From contig VBBT01000114.1 in assembly GCA_005881695.1 (NCBI GenBank), positions 1 to 32,943 of the forward strand: a DNA stretch of 32,943 nt, given 5' to 3'. This stretch comes from Candidatus Bathyarchaeota archaeon (lineage in GTDB: Archaea; Thermoproteota; Bathyarchaeia; 40CM-2-53-6). Shown piece after piece: positions 26,346 through 32,943 of the stretch. Each line of letters opens with the position of its first letter. Positions within the stretch are counted from its first letter, which is position 1. The position numbers and the translations under genes are program-made. A model generated the notes under the pieces. It was not told where the DNA came from. It saw nothing but the letters and a program-made list of their open reading frames with translations, and searched no databases.

Positions 26346-27029
26346 TCAAGCGGGTCTCCTGTTTCTCCAGTACCGGATTACTTTGGTGCTGTCGTGTCCC
26401 TTAGCAGGTCTTCTGCGAAGCTTTTCGTTCATCAATAGGGCTGTTTTCCGTTGTCGCGAGGATTCGACGAGGGAGCGGGTCTCGCGAAGGATTTCCCTAG
26501 CGATTTCGACCGTGCTTTGTTGTTGGGCGAGCTTCAAGATCTTTCGCCTGTTGACTCTGGTGTTCGCAAGGATTTCTCTGATGTCTTCTCGATCCTTGAA
26601 GCTTCGTTCGACCGGACGTGTCGCTTTGATCATTCGGAGCTTCGATAAGATGAGCTGTTCGGGGGGCTGGTAGTAAGACCTCAATCCAAGGGCTGTGCCT
26701 GACCGTCGCTCCAATCTCCCTTCCGTCTGTATGATCAGGTCGACTTGGTAGGGGAAGTGTTGGTGTTGCAGGCTGATGATATTGTAGCCGCTGGCTAGCT
26801 GGAGCTTGATAATCGTCTTCTCTACTATCAGTCCACCGCGGGCGAGTTTGTCCAAGAACTTATCAAGGTCGTCGATCGAGACTTGGACGATAAAATCCAC
26901 ATCCGATGTTGTTCGTGGGACCCCGTAGTAGCTGGCCGCCATTGCACCAGTGATCGCATAGTCGTAGCCGATCGCGTTGAAGAGAGAGACTAGAGACTTT
27001 GAGAACCGCTCGAAGCTCAGAGTCCTCAG
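26346..27029 (-). CDS. Nucleotidyltransferase-fold protein (probable CTG start)
   Basis: 227 residues from CTG. The NTase core reads A-I-T-G-A-M-A-A-S-Y-Y-G-V-P-R-T-T-S-D-V-D-F, with acidic D43 and D45, and a third strand H-F-P-Y-Q-V-D-L-I. A C-terminal helical and basic tail follows. The only ATG in frame would delete the conserved first helix and the G motif's start. CTG at 27029 overlaps the TGA stop of the upstream small gene (CTGA), like a standard ATGA coupling. Related to AbiEii/MNT-type toxin or antitoxin nucleotidyltransferases; function inferred. It is one of three NTase genes in the island. Confidence 0.82.
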   Translation of the reverse strand: MRTLSFERFSKSLVSLFNAIGYDYAITGAMAASYYGVPRTTSDVDFIVQVSIDDLDKFLDKLARGGLIVEKTIIKLQLASGYNIISLQHQHFPYQVDLIIQTEGRLERRSGTALGLRSYYQPPEQLILSKLRMIKATRPVERSFKDREDIREILANTRVNRRKILKLAQQQSTVEIAREILRETRSLVESSRQRKTALLMNEKLRRRPAKGHDSTKVIRYWRNRRPA

Positions 27030-27244
27030 CGAACCCTACATCCCGACTTGAACCGTTTTCGGGCGAGCTCCAGCAGTTTTGCCTCGGAGATGCCTGGGTG
27101 CCGGTCACGGATAGAGTCCATAGTGATCGCCGCGACCGTGGAGCTCATGTCGACGGCGAGGTTAACTTTGGCTTCTCCGCTCATTCGTCGAAAGCCACGA
27201 GTGAGATGCTTGGTAGATGATTTCTTCGTTGAATTGCCAGCCAT
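27026..27244 (-). CDS. Small partner protein of the nucleotidyltransferase
   Basis: 72 residues from ATG (TTG at 27262 is an alternative). Basic N-terminus, then helices with S-S-T-V-A-A-I-T-M-D-S-I and R-H-P-G-I-S-E-A-K-L-L-E-L-A-R-K-R-F. No named family recognised. Its stop overlaps the downstream nucleotidyltransferase start (CTGA), so they form a two-gene unit. This resembles a toxin-antitoxin or partner pair, with the small protein first; that role is a guess. Confidence 0.68.
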   Translation of the reverse strand: MAGNSTKKSSTKHLTRGFRRMSGEAKVNLAVDMSSTVAAITMDSIRDRHPGISEAKLLELARKRFKSGCRVR

Positions 27245-27397: not shown

Positions 27398-27985
27398 ATG
27401 GTTGAAGATGAAGGCAGGAAGAATAGAGAAGATCGCGAAGAGGCGCATCAAAGCCACAGTCAAAAAATTCTGGGCGAGGCCTTCGGCATCGATAGGGAAC
27501 GTGTCAAGTCCTTCAACGAGGATGATAGGGGAGAGGACCAGAGATTCGAGACCTCCCTCCCCGGATTCAGGTTTAAAGAGGAAGAACACGAGGCTTCGCG
27601 GCACCTTTCCAAAATCGTGGCAAGAGTTACCCAGTTGATGGTGAAGGTGAAGCTTGGAAACCCTGTTTCCAAGTCTAGGGAGAAAATAGTTGACAAGGCT
27701 CTGGTCGATACGAGGTCGACATTCACAGTTCTTCCCCGTAGTATAGCTACGAAGCTCGGGTTGAGAAGCCTTGGGAAGAGACGAGTTGAGACGGCGAATC
27801 GCAGCCAAGTCTTGGATCAGTCTTTCGCCTCTATCGAGATCGACGGGAAGAACACTGTTACACCGCTCTTGATCAGCGGAACGCTGGACAAGATTCTGAT
27901 CGGCGTGATAACCCTTGAAGCGCTTGGGCTCATGGTCGACCCGACAAAAGGAACACTGAAAGACACCGAGACGCTTCTCCTCTAA
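27398..27985 (+). CDS. Retropepsin-like (clan AA) aspartic protease with DTG to DTR
   Basis: 195 residues. The conserved domain starts near residue 75: V-T-Q-L-M-V-K-V-K-L-G-N-P-V, A-L-V-D-T-R-S-T-F-T-V-L-P, I-A-T-K-L-G-L, then V-T-P-L-L-I-S and the end I-G-V-I-T-L-E-A-L-G-L-M-V-D-P. In functional relatives the D-T-G triad is followed by A/S-T; here Gly is Arg (AGG), a likely single-base change from GGG. The 75-residue N-terminus is Glu/Arg-rich low complexity and may not belong; a GTG near 27618 would give the bare domain. Activity is doubtful. Confidence 0.72.
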   Translation: MVEDEGRKNREDREEAHQSHSQKILGEAFGIDRERVKSFNEDDRGEDQRFETSLPGFRFKEEEHEASRHLSKIVARVTQLMVKVKLGNPVSKSREKIVDKALVDTRSTFTVLPRSIATKLGLRSLGKRRVETANRSQVLDQSFASIEIDGKNTVTPLLISGTLDKILIGVITLEALGLMVDPTKGTLKDTETLLL

Positions 27986-28063: not shown

Positions 28064-28330
28064 ATGACAGCAACGACAATTACGATCTCCGAGGACCTCA
28101 AGAGGGACCTTCTCAGGGTGGCTGCCCGGCTCCAAGCCTCTCGTGGACAGAAGATAGACTATGACGATGTTCTCAGATACCTGGTGAGGAAGGCTACGAG
28201 GAACATGGCTCTCTTCCGGCAAGCATGCGCGCCCACCGGAGTATCCTCACGCGAGCTTCGAAAGCAGCTGGCGAAGGGAAGGGAAGAGGACAGGAAGAAG
28301 GAACTCAGCCTCGAGCGAAGACACTCTTAG
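28064..28330 (+). CDS. VapB-like antitoxin
   Basis: 88 residues with an ATG start. The N-terminal ribbon-helix-helix-like part reads T-T-I-T-I-S-E-D-L-K-R-D-L-L-R-V-A-A-R-L-Q-A-S-R-G, then Y-D-D-V-L-R-Y-L-V-R-K. Basic C-terminal part (L-R-K-Q-L-A-K-G-R-E-E-D-R-K-K) would wrap the toxin. This is the usual archaeal VapB form that pairs with a PIN-domain toxin, which lies right after it. The family would bind its own operator. Confidence 0.82.
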   Translation: MTATTITISEDLKRDLLRVAARLQASRGQKIDYDDVLRYLVRKATRNMALFRQACAPTGVSSRELRKQLAKGREEDRKKELSLERRHS

Positions 28331-28337
28331 CGGAACA

Positions 28338-28748
28338 ATCTCCCTTGACGGCAGCGTCTTGATCGAGCTCCTCTCTTCAACTGATCTCTCCAAGCCTCTC
28401 CGGGACGCAATAGAGGCGGATACCGTCAACCCTTACACCACATTCCAATCGCTTACCGAAGCCGAGTACATTCTCTGCAGAGAGATAGGCTGGGAGAAGG
28501 CTAGAGGAAAAATCGAAGGGCTGACCGAGTCTAGAGCCATTGAACTGGTAGAGGCGAGCGAGCTGGTCCACGAAACGGCCCGGATAAAATGTGCACGTGC
28601 GATAGCACTCACCGACTGTTACACTATCGCCCTTGCAGAGAAAATCAACGGAACAGCCGTCTTCGCCCATCTCGAAGATGACCTGTCTCGAGAGATAAGG
28701 AGAAAGCCATTCTCGACGAAACTCGCCTTCCTTGAACCGGCCCGCTAG
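28338..28748 (+). CDS. VapC-like PIN-domain toxin without a canonical start codon
   Basis: PIN-domain RNase. Acidic residues visible: the first D in I-S-L-D-G-S-V-L-I-E-L-L, E in S-L-T-E-A-E-Y-I-L-C, D in A-L-T-D-C-Y-T-I-A-L, and the acidic D-D after A-H-L-E. The only standard start in frame (TTG at 28359) would remove the first catalytic Asp. The frame is open for more than 100 bases upstream but has no ATG, GTG, TTG or CTG; ATC at 28338, 8 bases after the antitoxin stop, is the best position. The start therefore is unusual or mutated, or the gene is silent. Confidence 0.72.
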   Translation: MSLDGSVLIELLSSTDLSKPLRDAIEADTVNPYTTFQSLTEAEYILCREIGWEKARGKIEGLTESRAIELVEASELVHETARIKCARAIALTDCYTIALAEKINGTAVFAHLEDDLSREIRRKPFSTKLAFLEPAR

Positions 28749-29002
28749 AAACCACCCTGTTATCCTCTGAACATTGAACCGCACATGGTTATCCACTCTG
28801 CCATATGAGGGGACGGACCCTGGTTCCAGAGATCGCTTGATAATTCCAGAAGGGTGCTCACGACGAGAACAGCTAATGACCACGAAGACCAGTATGGGAA
28901 GCTTCGGGCCGGCGACCGGCAAGGCACGGTTACAGTTGTCGATTCTTCTAGTTGAGCTATAGAGGAAGCCGATGATAAACGGGGCCGGGTTTGATACCGG
29001 AG
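28749..29002. other. Non-coding gap after vapC-like gene
   Basis: No convincing gene. It leads into the 9-bp inverted repeat at 28983-29013. Together with the remnant below and the gap to 29409 it makes about 660 bases without an intact gene. Confidence 0.45.
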
Positions 29003-29013
29003 CTAACCCGGCC
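28983..29013. repeat. Perfect 9-bp inverted repeat
   Basis: Arms GGCCGGGTT (28983-28991) and AACCCGGCC (29005-29013), 13-base loop. It overlaps the stop codon of the remnant on the minus strand. No T-run follows, so a simple terminator is not clear; could be an operator or an RNA hairpin. Confidence 0.55.
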
Positions 29014-29277
29014 GCCGCAGGATCACTTTCTCTAAAGATCGAATAATGTTAGTGGGCCCTTCCATAACAGGAAGACGACCGTTATCCCCGACGAGTCTGC
29101 CGGCCAGCTCGAGTCTGAGACCTTCTAGATCCTCCTCGGAGACTCTCTCTCTAATAGCGCTGGCAAGCTTCTCCTTCCTCTCAACAACACTCCCCCACCA
29201 CTACCAGGAGTCAAAGGCTCAAAGGAAGAAACAGTTAGGTCGAAAAGTATTCGTTCAGTACCAACTTGATCAGCCAT
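29003..29277 (-). pseudogene. Frameshifted remnant of a small helical protein
   Basis: ATG at 29277 opens M-A-D-Q-V-G-T-E-R-I-L-F-D-L and runs to about 29190. The next frame then carries V-V-E-R-K-E-K-L-A-S-A-I-R-E-R-V and L-E-G-L-R-L-E-L-A-G-R-L-V-G-D-N-G-R up to a TAG at 29003. The second part has no start codon of its own (a TAG lies just before it). A single-base shift would join both. No family recognised. Low confidence that it was ever one gene. Confidence 0.35.
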
Positions 29278-29409
29278 ACACGCTCGCCTGAGCGTTCAGA
29301 TCGTTGACTCGGAAATTAGTGTTATGGACACGGGTGCATCCCATTCACAGCTCCTAAAGATAGGCTAGTCAGAGCTTTATCGAAGCAAGCAGAAAGTAGA
29401 CGTGGTCTC

Positions 29410-29805
29410 ATGTCAATGCACCAAAGCAATCCTTACGATTTCATAGCCCCAGTAAAGGACCCGAAACACTTCGCGGGGAGAAACGAAGAGCTCAAGGAAA
29501 TCGAATACTACATAGACGAAGCTAGGGGCCCGAAGCCGATATTCTTCAATCTAGCCTTGATTGGTGGGAGAGGTTCTGGAAAAACGAGTCTGCTCAACAT
29601 GATCGGCCACATAGCGAGCGAAAAGGGTCTCTTAGCTGTCAAACTATCCCTGAACAATGAGGTAGTGGAGAGTGATGTCCTATTCTTCAAGGACGTCTTC
29701 GATACCATTCTAACCAAAGGCATTGAAAGAGGAATGTTCGGTGGACCGACCGACAAAATTCAGCGTGCTTTGCGGAAGGTCAATTTGAACCAGAGCTTGC
29801 ACTAG
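29410..29805 (+). pseudogene. N-terminal fragment of a P-loop AAA-type ATPase
   Basis: 131 residues. After N-P-Y-D-F-I-A-P-V-K-D-P-K-H-F-A-G-R-N-E-E-L comes L-I-G-G-R-G-S-G-K-T-S-L-L-N, a Walker A. Proteins with this start (archaeal ATPases with F-x-G-R-x-x-E-L before Walker A) usually have several hundred residues, with Walker B and sensor motifs that are missing here. It ends abruptly in N-L-N-Q-S-L-H then TAG. I infer truncation of a larger gene. Confidence 0.65.
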
Positions 29806-29850
29806 TGGGCCTGTGTACTTGTTTACGATGCCGTTAATTTTCAATCAGTG

Positions 29851-30114
29851 TCAGAGAAGAAAATTGGGCGGGATCGTGCTAATAAAATCGACAGCGATGG
29901 TCGGCAAGTCGTCTGCACCCATGTCTTTCAGAATGTTGAGCAAGCGATCGTACTCCTTGTCGTGGGCAACAACCTTGCCTTCGCGAACTGCAACCCAAGA
30001 GTCTCCGTATTTTTCCTTCAGCCGGTCATAGTTTTCGACAAGCCACCTCATATTGTCCTCTGCGGTTTTGAATGAAGAGATCAGTTTTCTGCGTTCGTTT
30101 TTCGACAGTGGCAT
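29851..30114 (-). CDS. DUF5678-like small protein
   Basis: 87 residues with an ATG start. The core W-L-V-E-N-Y-D-R-L-K-E-K-Y-G-D-S-W-V-A-V-R-E-G-K-V-V-A-H-D-K is the DUF5678 pattern, common in archaea and found near toxin-antitoxin and other accessory genes. The C-terminus is hydrophobic (I-A-V-D-F-I-S-T-I-P-P). Function unknown. Confidence 0.78.
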   Translation of the reverse strand: MPLSKNERRKLISSFKTAEDNMRWLVENYDRLKEKYGDSWVAVREGKVVAHDKEYDRLLNILKDMGADDLPTIAVDFISTIPPNFLL

Positions 30115-30357
30115 TTTGGGCTATCCTGCATATGGAAAGTATCCGGTCTGAATTAGTTAAGAGTTACTGGTTCTCATCTAGATAAGTGACAGTGCTCCGG
30201 ATGAGCGAAAGCGTCTCCTTTTATGGTATTTAAACAACCGAAAGGACTCGACGGTAAGCTTGTCTTCCCAGAGTCTATGATGGTGGTTGTTCTATCCATA
30301 AAAGATTGTTCGATGAATAGAACGTCTGGGCGTCCTGGGTCCTAGTATCCAGCCCAG
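30115..30357. other. Non-coding gap
   Basis: AT-rich run with TATTTAAAC at 30226-30234 but no convincing gene. Together with the fragment below and the 200 bases that follow, about 580 bases separate intact genes. Confidence 0.45.
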
Positions 30358-30495
30358 ATGATGAAAGACGAGGAACTATGGACACTATTACGGAAAAGAG
30401 GATACAGGATACTGGAACTGAGCTACAGTAGCTACACGAATAAGAAAGGAGACGAACTATTCCGTGAAATAGTCAATAAGGTGGGAAGAGAATAG
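30358..30495 (+). pseudogene. Endonuclease-like C-terminal fragment, copy A
   Basis: 45-residue frame: K-D-E-E-L-W-T-L-L-R-K-R-G-Y-R-I-L then E-L-S-Y-S-S-Y. This resembles the end of restriction-endonuclease-fold (DUF559/Vsr-like) proteins, where R-x-x-G-Y-x-V-L-x-x follows the core. By hand count 31 of 44 aligned residues match copy B at 32066-32200, including a 29-base identical run (30382-30410 against 32090-32118). No core lies upstream. The name is an inference; the similarity to copy B is seen directly. Confidence 0.6.
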
Positions 30496-30653
30496 AGAGG
30501 AGATCTTTGCCTCGCTGCGAAAGCCCTGTTCTTGGTTCTGAGGCGATGATGTCAACGTCCTTCTAGAGTAGGAAAGGAAAGGGGGAGAGGAGCGAAACTA
30601 GAAGTGAAAGCAATCCAATATCCCGTTAGACCAATAGTTTCGGTCCTGTAACG

Positions 30654-30660
30654 CTTATAT
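30654..30660 (+). promoter_or_regulatory. TATA-like box of the MNT-HEPN pair
   Basis: CTTATAT lies 37-43 bases before the TTG at 30697, giving a short leader. Confidence 0.5.
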
Positions 30661-30696
30661 GGTCGTGTTCAGAATTATGAACAGACGTTCGGAAAA

Positions 30697-31233
30697 TTGA
30701 GCGACATAAACTACACGAGGGCCACCATGTCAATCCTCGACACCTTGTCAAGAGATCCGGACAAAAGTCTCTACACCAGGGAGGTCGCAGAACGTTCGGG
30801 CATCAGCGTGGGCGCCGCGAGCATGATACTCAGAGTCCTTGAAGGGTCCCACATGATAGACGTCGAGGAGAAGGGAGGGATGAAGTTCTACAGGATCAAC
30901 CTGTTGAACCCTGTCGCCAGAGAGTTCAAGGTCCTGTTCAACGTTCAGAAGATTAGCTGTCTCGTCGAACCTCTCAAGGAGTATTCCGACCGCATCATCT
31001 TATTCGGCAGCTTCGCAGATGGAACTGACGGTCCGGAGAGCGACGTAGACCTCCTTGTTCTTACCTCCGAACCCCACGCGGCCAAAGACCTCTTCCGCCT
31101 CCTTCAGAAGAAGATCGACAGACACCTCTCTCCCATAATAGTAGGAGCCGAAGGACTTGCCCGATTACGAAGAGACGACAAGGCCTTGTTTGAACAAGTA
31201 TATCGTGGCAAGACACTTTGGGAGAAACAGTAA
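30697..31233 (+). CDS. wHTH-MNT nucleotidyltransferase (antitoxin-like)
   Basis: 178 residues with a TTG start. N-terminal winged helix-turn-helix (S-L-Y-T-R-E-V-A-E-R-S-G-I-S-V-G-A-A-S-M-I-L-R-V-L-E), then the MNT domain with L-F-G-S-F-A-D-G-T (G104-S105) and E-S-D-V-D-L-L-V (D116, D118). MNT proteins are antitoxins that AMPylate HEPN RNases. The wHTH could make this one its own repressor. It overlaps the HEPN gene by 16 bases, so the two are coupled. Confidence 0.85.
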   Translation: MSDINYTRATMSILDTLSRDPDKSLYTREVAERSGISVGAASMILRVLEGSHMIDVEEKGGMKFYRINLLNPVAREFKVLFNVQKISCLVEPLKEYSDRIILFGSFADGTDGPESDVDLLVLTSEPHAAKDLFRLLQKKIDRHLSPIIVGAEGLARLRRDDKALFEQVYRGKTLWEKQ

Positions 31234-31790
31234 GCCCAGTTCTCAGAAAGCTCCTTGAGGAAAGGAGGATTCTAAGGTCTAGAACCTCGAGCCGTATGGT
31301 TGCCAAAGAACTCAAAGGTTCGGAGTTAGACCTGGCAACCGCCAAGGCGTCTTATGAGGCAGGAGATCACAAATGGGCAACGGTTCAGGCTTACTATTCC
31401 ATCTTCCACGCTGCGAGAGCTCTGTTGTACAACAAGGGGTTCAGGGAGCGCAGCCATAGAGGACTCCTCAAGGCGCTCGCAGAACTCTACTCTCGTAACA
31501 CCCTGTCGGACATGCTGGTTGTGTTTGAAGAATCAATGAGCCTGAGAGAAGATGCCGATTATGAACTCGTCCATTCCGAGCAGGGGGCCGGCGAGGCTTT
31601 GGAAGATGCAGAGATCTTCTTTGAAAGGTCCAAGATGATATTGCGCGACAGCATCGACGGCCATCGTCGAGCCCGCGTCCAGGGAGAGGATCTACTCTCT
31701 TATCTCGAAAAGTCCAAGGATTCACGAGGTGCAATATCCAAGAGGACGCGCAAGCATCAGGCACCTCGAGGGCGCCGTCAAAAACCGTAA
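31218..31790 (+). CDS. HEPN-domain RNase toxin-like protein
   Basis: 190 residues with a TTG start inside the MNT gene. The HEPN helices show A-T-V-Q-A-Y-Y-S-I-F-H-A-A-R-A-L-L, R-S-H-R-G-L-L-K-A-L, and the S-L-R-E-D-A-D-Y (R110, Y115) motif that in HEPN toxins contributes to the active site. The tail from ~145 is basic and looks untypical (S-K-R-T-R-K-H, G-R-R-Q-K-P). Forms the toxin half of an MNT-HEPN pair with the preceding gene; role as RNase inferred from the family. Confidence 0.82.
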   Translation: MGETVSPVLRKLLEERRILRSRTSSRMVAKELKGSELDLATAKASYEAGDHKWATVQAYYSIFHAARALLYNKGFRERSHRGLLKALAELYSRNTLSDMLVVFEESMSLREDADYELVHSEQGAGEALEDAEIFFERSKMILRDSIDGHRRARVQGEDLLSYLEKSKDSRGAISKRTRKHQAPRGRRQKP

Positions 31791-32232: not shown

Positions 32233-32943
32233 CTACAGGGAATCTCTGAATTTCTGCTCGGAGATATGAGCTCTAAGCGATTCAAGGCCTAGAATCGCCT
32301 CTTTGATTAGGAGCGTCGGGTCGCTTCGCATGGCGAACAAGGATTTCATATTTGATACGAATTTTGATGAAGAGATCTCTCCGATCGCAGAGTCTACCTG
32401 TTCCATTAGTTTTTCTTTTGATCCGCAGGCTGCGCACCGCGCGACTTCTTTCCAGTCGACCCTTTCTGAGAGTATTACAGAATCTGCAATGTCCTGAGTC
32501 CTCCCCGAGTGTAGTTTCATAGCGACGAGCAGATTCCTCTGTGCCACCCTTGAGGGTGTGGAGTCCGTTGCTCCCACTACGATCGCTTCTACGGAATTCT
32601 CGCGTATGAACTTGTAGGTCCACGTTCCACTTGTTTGTCGGCTTACAACGGTGTTCACCAAGAGTTCCACCGATACTGGGAGTCCAGCTACCGATTTGCG
32701 GTATTCCCTCATTGTCACGCCTATCGGGGGCCGGAATCGACCCTTCCACAACGCGTACCCCTCGCCGAGGACTGTTGCATCTATGACAGGAATGTTGTTG
32801 CTAATGGTGGCGAGGTCGCAGTCGATCGAGAAGCGGTGCTGACCGTGGGCATTAACTGCGTATCCGCCGATCACAACGAAGCCGTCTGTTGCCTCGCTCA
32901 GTACCCTGAGGATTCTGATGATCTCTGTCTCGCGGGCAGTCAG
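32233..32943 (-). CDS. Nucleotidyltransferase-fold protein (partial, 5' end outside window)
   Basis: At least 236 residues. V-V-I-G-G-Y-A-V-N-A-H-G with H-R-F-S-I-D-C-D-L is a nucleotidyltransferase start, with acidic D-C-D. A Cys pair (C-A-A-C-G) sits in the central helical part (R-C-A-A-C-G-S-K-E-K). In the window the frame is open to the edge (A-R-E-T-E-I-I-R-I-L-R-V-L-S-E-A-T-D-G-F), so the start is beyond it. AbiEii-like proteins look like this. Role as toxin is inferred. It converges on the copy B remnant with 32 bases between. Confidence 0.8.
   Translation of the reverse strand: MTARETEIIRILRVLSEATDGFVVIGGYAVNAHGQHRFSIDCDLATISNNIPVIDATVLGEGYALWKGRFRPPIGVTMREYRKSVAGLPVSVELLVNTVVSRQTSGTWTYKFIRENSVEAIVVGATDSTPSRVAQRNLLVAMKLHSGRTQDIADSVILSERVDWKEVARCAACGSKEKLMEQVDSAIGEISSSKFVSNMKSLFAMRSDPTLLIKEAILGLESLRAHISEQKFRDSL

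Follow-up and report, generated by a model that had tools for sequence, protein, structure and literature searches.

Two neighbouring genes on the minus strand of an archaeal contig raise the question of whether a protein can begin at CTG exactly where the gene before it ends, and of what so tightly coupled a pair might do. The window, by which we mean the whole stretch of 32,943 nucleotides that was analysed, is archaeal by its aIF6, L31e, S19e, Rpr2 and prefoldin genes. Within it, a small open reading frame runs from ATG 27244 to a TGA at 27028-27026, and this stop overlaps a CTG at 27029-27027 that opens a 227-codon nucleotidyltransferase (NTase) frame ending at 26346. The initial annotation had pointed to this CTGA as an overlap of stop and start; the overlap is present in the sequence and the junction is conserved in relatives. 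The features discussed below are these:

27026..27244, minus strand: small antitoxin-like gene (MenA1/Rv0078B-like), 72 aa from ATG 27244, start uncertain
27026..27184, minus strand: conserved core of the small gene, 52 aa from ATG 27184, modelled as two helices
27026..27029, minus strand: CTGA overlap of the small-gene TGA and the predicted CTG start of the NTase, conserved in relatives
26346..27029, minus strand: MenT1-like NTase, 227 aa, with a predicted CTG start
26895..26909, minus strand: codons T41-x-D43-x-D45, aligned with MenT1 T39, D41 and D43 (PMC10435456)
26346..26480, minus strand: NTase C-terminal tail (about residues 184-227), which matches VapB-like proteins over their C-terminal half

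The NTase frame itself leaves little room for a conventional start. Just two codons separate the preceding in-frame stop from the CTG, and the first ATG, GTG or TTG is ATG 26942, 29 codons past the CTG and within the conserved core. In the structural model, whose domain is predicted with high confidence, an N-terminal helix (residues 6-20) and a strand (residues 24-27) lie upstream of ATG 26942. Because this conserved helix and strand precede the first ATG, GTG or TTG, they can be kept only by a start at the CTG or at another non-canonical codon. The internal ATG 26942 was rejected as a start, as it falls inside the conserved core and is not itself conserved.

Junctions were read after searching 38 genomes of the order and a sample of 398 genomes of the phylum, all of them drafts, and the relatedness of the genomes inflates the homologue counts. 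Across 18 aligned NTase genes the codon at the start position is CTG in 11, TTG in six and ATG in one; it varies solely among initiator codons, in keeping with the start proposed in the initial annotation. CTG and TTG together account for a share of 0.34 of the internal leucine codons of the same genes, and no other leucine column among them exceeds 56% NTG. The chance estimate for the start-column pattern, about 10^-9, assumes independent rows, and the rows are related. Five IMG/VR loci found afterwards have an NTase start of CTG in one case and TTG in four. Within the window's clade, CTGA forms the junction in G000, G001, G006, G009, G013, G016 and G019, which is decayed, and G005 has TTGA. 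Members of a second clade (G028, G029, G038, G425, G153) mostly have a small gene that stops at TAG, with a single codon between this stop and the CTG; in the remaining relatives the NTase starts with TTG, or once with ATG (G217). The CTG start is retained in the NTase family across families of the class. On this comparative evidence the CTG appears to be the real start codon of the NTase, kept across a broad archaeal group, and the protein is predicted to begin there.

The same junctions bear on an alternative in which the CTG would not be a start and the small gene would instead be recoded, by frameshifting in the CTGA clade and by stop read-through in the TAG clade, to give an antitoxin-toxin fusion. 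Several relatives (L009, L010, L044, L045) do have both genes in the same frame with only a TAG between them. However, the NTG codon is constant across clades that differ in the relative frame of the two genes, a combination that counts against frameshifting or read-through. Moreover, the CTG changes solely to other initiators, TTG or ATG, and in four members of the second clade a GAGGT lies seven bases ahead of it. We regard recoding as very improbable.

Sequences ahead of the CTG in the window's clade match a Shine-Dalgarno motif no better than background, and we infer that translation of the window's NTase relies on ribosomes re-initiating once they have finished the small gene. A sigma-70 promoter scan, which is unsuited to archaea, found nothing. 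The arrangement is like that of archaeal termination-reinitiation pairs, which are co-directed genes with a four-base stop/start overlap (PMC6728339); it is unlike them in that the start here is CTG, and neither CTG nor CTGA was found in the text of that study. AUG, GUG and UUG are the start codons named in a review of initiation in archaea, in whose text CUG does not occur (PMC7531240).

To what extent does the genus use CTG elsewhere? A comparison that took in about 0.6 Mb from the window's genome and 1.0 Mb from a congener gave 185 ORF pairs, of which about four had CTG aligned to TTG or GTG and no usable canonical start nearby; the rate is rough, as the 185 pairs still contain some wrong-frame ORFs. 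It seems that the genus tolerates CTG starts, in roughly 1% of the genes sampled, and that CTG is not unique to the toxin-like gene. The idea that CTG serves as a regular start across the lineage was rejected, since it is tolerated but rare. Besides the NTase, four genes of the genus apparently begin with CTG in one of the two genomes and with TTG or GTG in its counterpart: L150 with L129, L091 with L118 (two pairs) and L133 with L084. Other CTGA overlaps in the sampled DNA were dismissed as CTG starts, since an ATG lies within three codons. The initial annotation had counted the NTase as the third CTG-start case; the others could not be identified, and the CTGA of the window's prefoldin gene has ATG as its next codon, so that CTG is unneeded there.

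As to what the NTase is, the profile of its family has MenT1 (8an4) as its best match in the PDB, with an E-value of 1.1e-6, and a Foldseek search with the model among 350,542 entries returned MenT1 chains as its four top matches (E 3e-7), at about 19% identity in the structural alignment. MenT3 (TglT, 6j7q) ranks 15th among the structural matches of the model, and antibiotic nucleotidyltransferases, ANT(2'')-Ia among them, have a similar fold too. The putative catalytic residues T41, D43 and D45 are invariant in 18 homologues and align with T39, D41 and D43 of MenT1, residues described for that enzyme (PMC10435456). K130, K135, D146 and D149, also invariant, lie in the region of MenT1 K137/D152; the residue-level alignment to MenT1 ends at residue 103. 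In Pfam searches a weak AbiEii match was obtained for six of eight family members, and NTP_transf_2 gave no match for the NTase.

The small gene is harder to delimit. An open reading frame from ATG 27244 does give the 72 residues first proposed, yet this length is uncertain: a counterpart of ATG 27244, 19-20 codons upstream, exists only in the two nearest relatives, and the alternative ATG 27184 gives the conserved core of 52 residues, which is modelled as two helices with a pLDDT of 92. In Pfam the window's small protein alone matches the Rv0078B family weakly (E 0.03), and five of ten homologues match it, with a best E-value of 1.2e-4; scores of the small protein fall below the curated cut-off. 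A search of the 398 phylum genomes with PF18993 found four copies at E <= 0.001, all adjoining these NTases and none above the cut-off. The small-protein model superposes on the MenA1 chain (8an5_C) of the MenAT1 complex with TM-scores of 0.72/0.73 and an rmsd of 1.5, a match between simple two-helix folds with a Foldseek E-value of 1.2. Neither the small protein nor its homologues gave a HEPN match in Pfam, and no DNA-binding domain was found in the two-helix protein. Matches of its profile to designed repeat proteins in the PDB were set aside as repeat artefacts.

Both proteins thus point independently to a described system, MenA1-MenT1 (Rv0078B-Rv0078A) of Mycobacterium tuberculosis, and the pair is not as uncharacterised as the initial annotation had supposed. 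As in that system, a small antitoxin-family gene, here with a Pfam score below the curated cut-off, lies directly upstream of an NTase gene whose product is closest to MenT1 in sequence and structure and carries its T/D/D motif. The assignment gains weight because a separate search was made for each gene and the results led to the two chains of one complex. The archaeal pair differs in its host, in its low identity, in the CTG or TTG start at the overlap, in an invariant G-A in the NTase motif where MenT1 has G-G, and in a small-protein core of 52 aa as against 68 aa in MenA1. The AbiEi-AbiEii and MenA3-MenT3 (DUF1814) systems also belong to the NTase superfamily, but the antitoxins of the AbiE/MenA3 (COG5340-DUF1814) kind have two domains, include a winged helix and are larger (PMC10435456), whereas the archaeal partner is a two-helix protein of 52-72 aa. 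From sequence, models and analogy, we consider it quite probable that the pair is a two-gene toxin-antitoxin module related to MenA1-MenT1, with predicted toxicity.

The distribution of the pair can be followed through its relatives. The small gene lies directly upstream of the NTase in every close relative with readable upstream DNA, and the toxin-antitoxin or partner reading of the initial annotation finds support in this conserved adjacency and in the start codon. The two observations that the annotation had named as refuting it, a different start in homologues and a small gene not conserved beside the NTase, were checked for and did not refute it. The two genes are inherited together, the divergence of the small protein keeping step with that of the NTase (distance correlation r = 0.77; 0 of 2000 permutations). 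Matches of any kind, distant ones included, occur in 20 of the 38 genomes of the order, and matches occur in 30 of the 398 genomes of the phylum sample; decayed copies are seen at L012, L058 and L066. The two-gene unit, again with the small gene directly upstream, is also present on five IMG/VR contigs classed as viral (L196-L200). A plasmid search gave no match, and a Chloroflexi locus from the genome scan (L041) was dropped, as a profile search finds no family member there.

The surroundings of the pair have a history of their own. Most relatives lack the tail seen on the window's NTase, which matches small VapB-like proteins over their C-terminal half; the genes for these proteins directly precede those of PIN toxins. 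In G010, a congener, the equivalent site (L013, G010:C64) lies before the same gene for a membrane protein as in the window, and there this tail is joined to a different NTase, one of the MNT type. We read this arrangement as a sign that different toxin-antitoxin modules may have occupied one site in turn. Divergent from the pair is an ORF at 27398-27985 (+) with weak similarity to aspartyl proteases (PF13975, E 2.8e-5). The right end of the window (28064-31790 on the plus strand and 32233-32943 on the minus strand) is rich in toxin-antitoxin-like genes, among them a small ORF followed by a PIN ORF at 28359-28748 (+), a pair of wHTH-MNT and HEPN genes at 30697-31790 (+), and a further NTase-like ORF at 32233-32943 (-), judged by eye and open at the window end.

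Two other accounts of the pair have to be weighed against a MenAT1-like module. An enzyme coupled to an accessory subunit and serving in housekeeping or RNA processing would be in keeping with the resemblance of the NTase fold to ANT(2'')-Ia-type enzymes, but it fits poorly with the patchy distribution and decayed copies, with a neighbourhood rich in toxin-antitoxin genes and with the nearness of both partners to MenAT1, and we consider it unlikely. The HEPN and wHTH-MNT pair nearby in the window suggests, in turn, a HEPN-MNT-like arrangement, with the small protein as toxin and the NTase as antitoxin. Such a reversal of roles is highly improbable, given a small protein that matches the MenA1 antitoxin family and not HEPN, and an NTase that is MenT1-like and has no NTP_transf_2 match.

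If the pair is indeed a MenAT1-like module, its workings can be sketched by analogy. MenT1 modifies tRNA by adding nucleotides at the 3' end; MenA1 blocks it by binding and by induced auto-phosphorylation of T39 (PMC10435456, PMC11375011). The archaeal NTase is likewise likely to be a toxin that blocks translation, with the small protein as its antitoxin. Both genes would be carried on one mRNA, and ribosomes ending the small gene would re-initiate at the overlapping CUG at low frequency, such that weak re-initiation would yield more antitoxin than toxin. Free NTase would modify RNA by nucleotide addition, with tRNA 3' ends the likeliest target, as for MenT1, and translation would stop. The two-helix protein would cover and block the active site of the NTase, and might also provoke auto-phosphorylation of the invariant T41, the counterpart of MenT1 T39. 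More tentatively, the CTG start could be a selected damper, in which a weak CUG or UUG coupled to the antitoxin stop keeps the toxin a small fraction of the antitoxin.

The MenA1-MenT1 antitoxin family has previously been surveyed in bacterial genomes, and with the present assignment the range of this kind of system would grow to include a broad set of uncultured archaea as well as contigs that are classified as viral. A gene finder that accepts just ATG, GTG and TTG as starts will miss the CTG and would begin the NTase inside its active-site region. Should the damper reading be true, the pair would provide an evolutionarily documented instance of CUG initiation in archaea, in a lineage with a low but real frequency of CTG starts.
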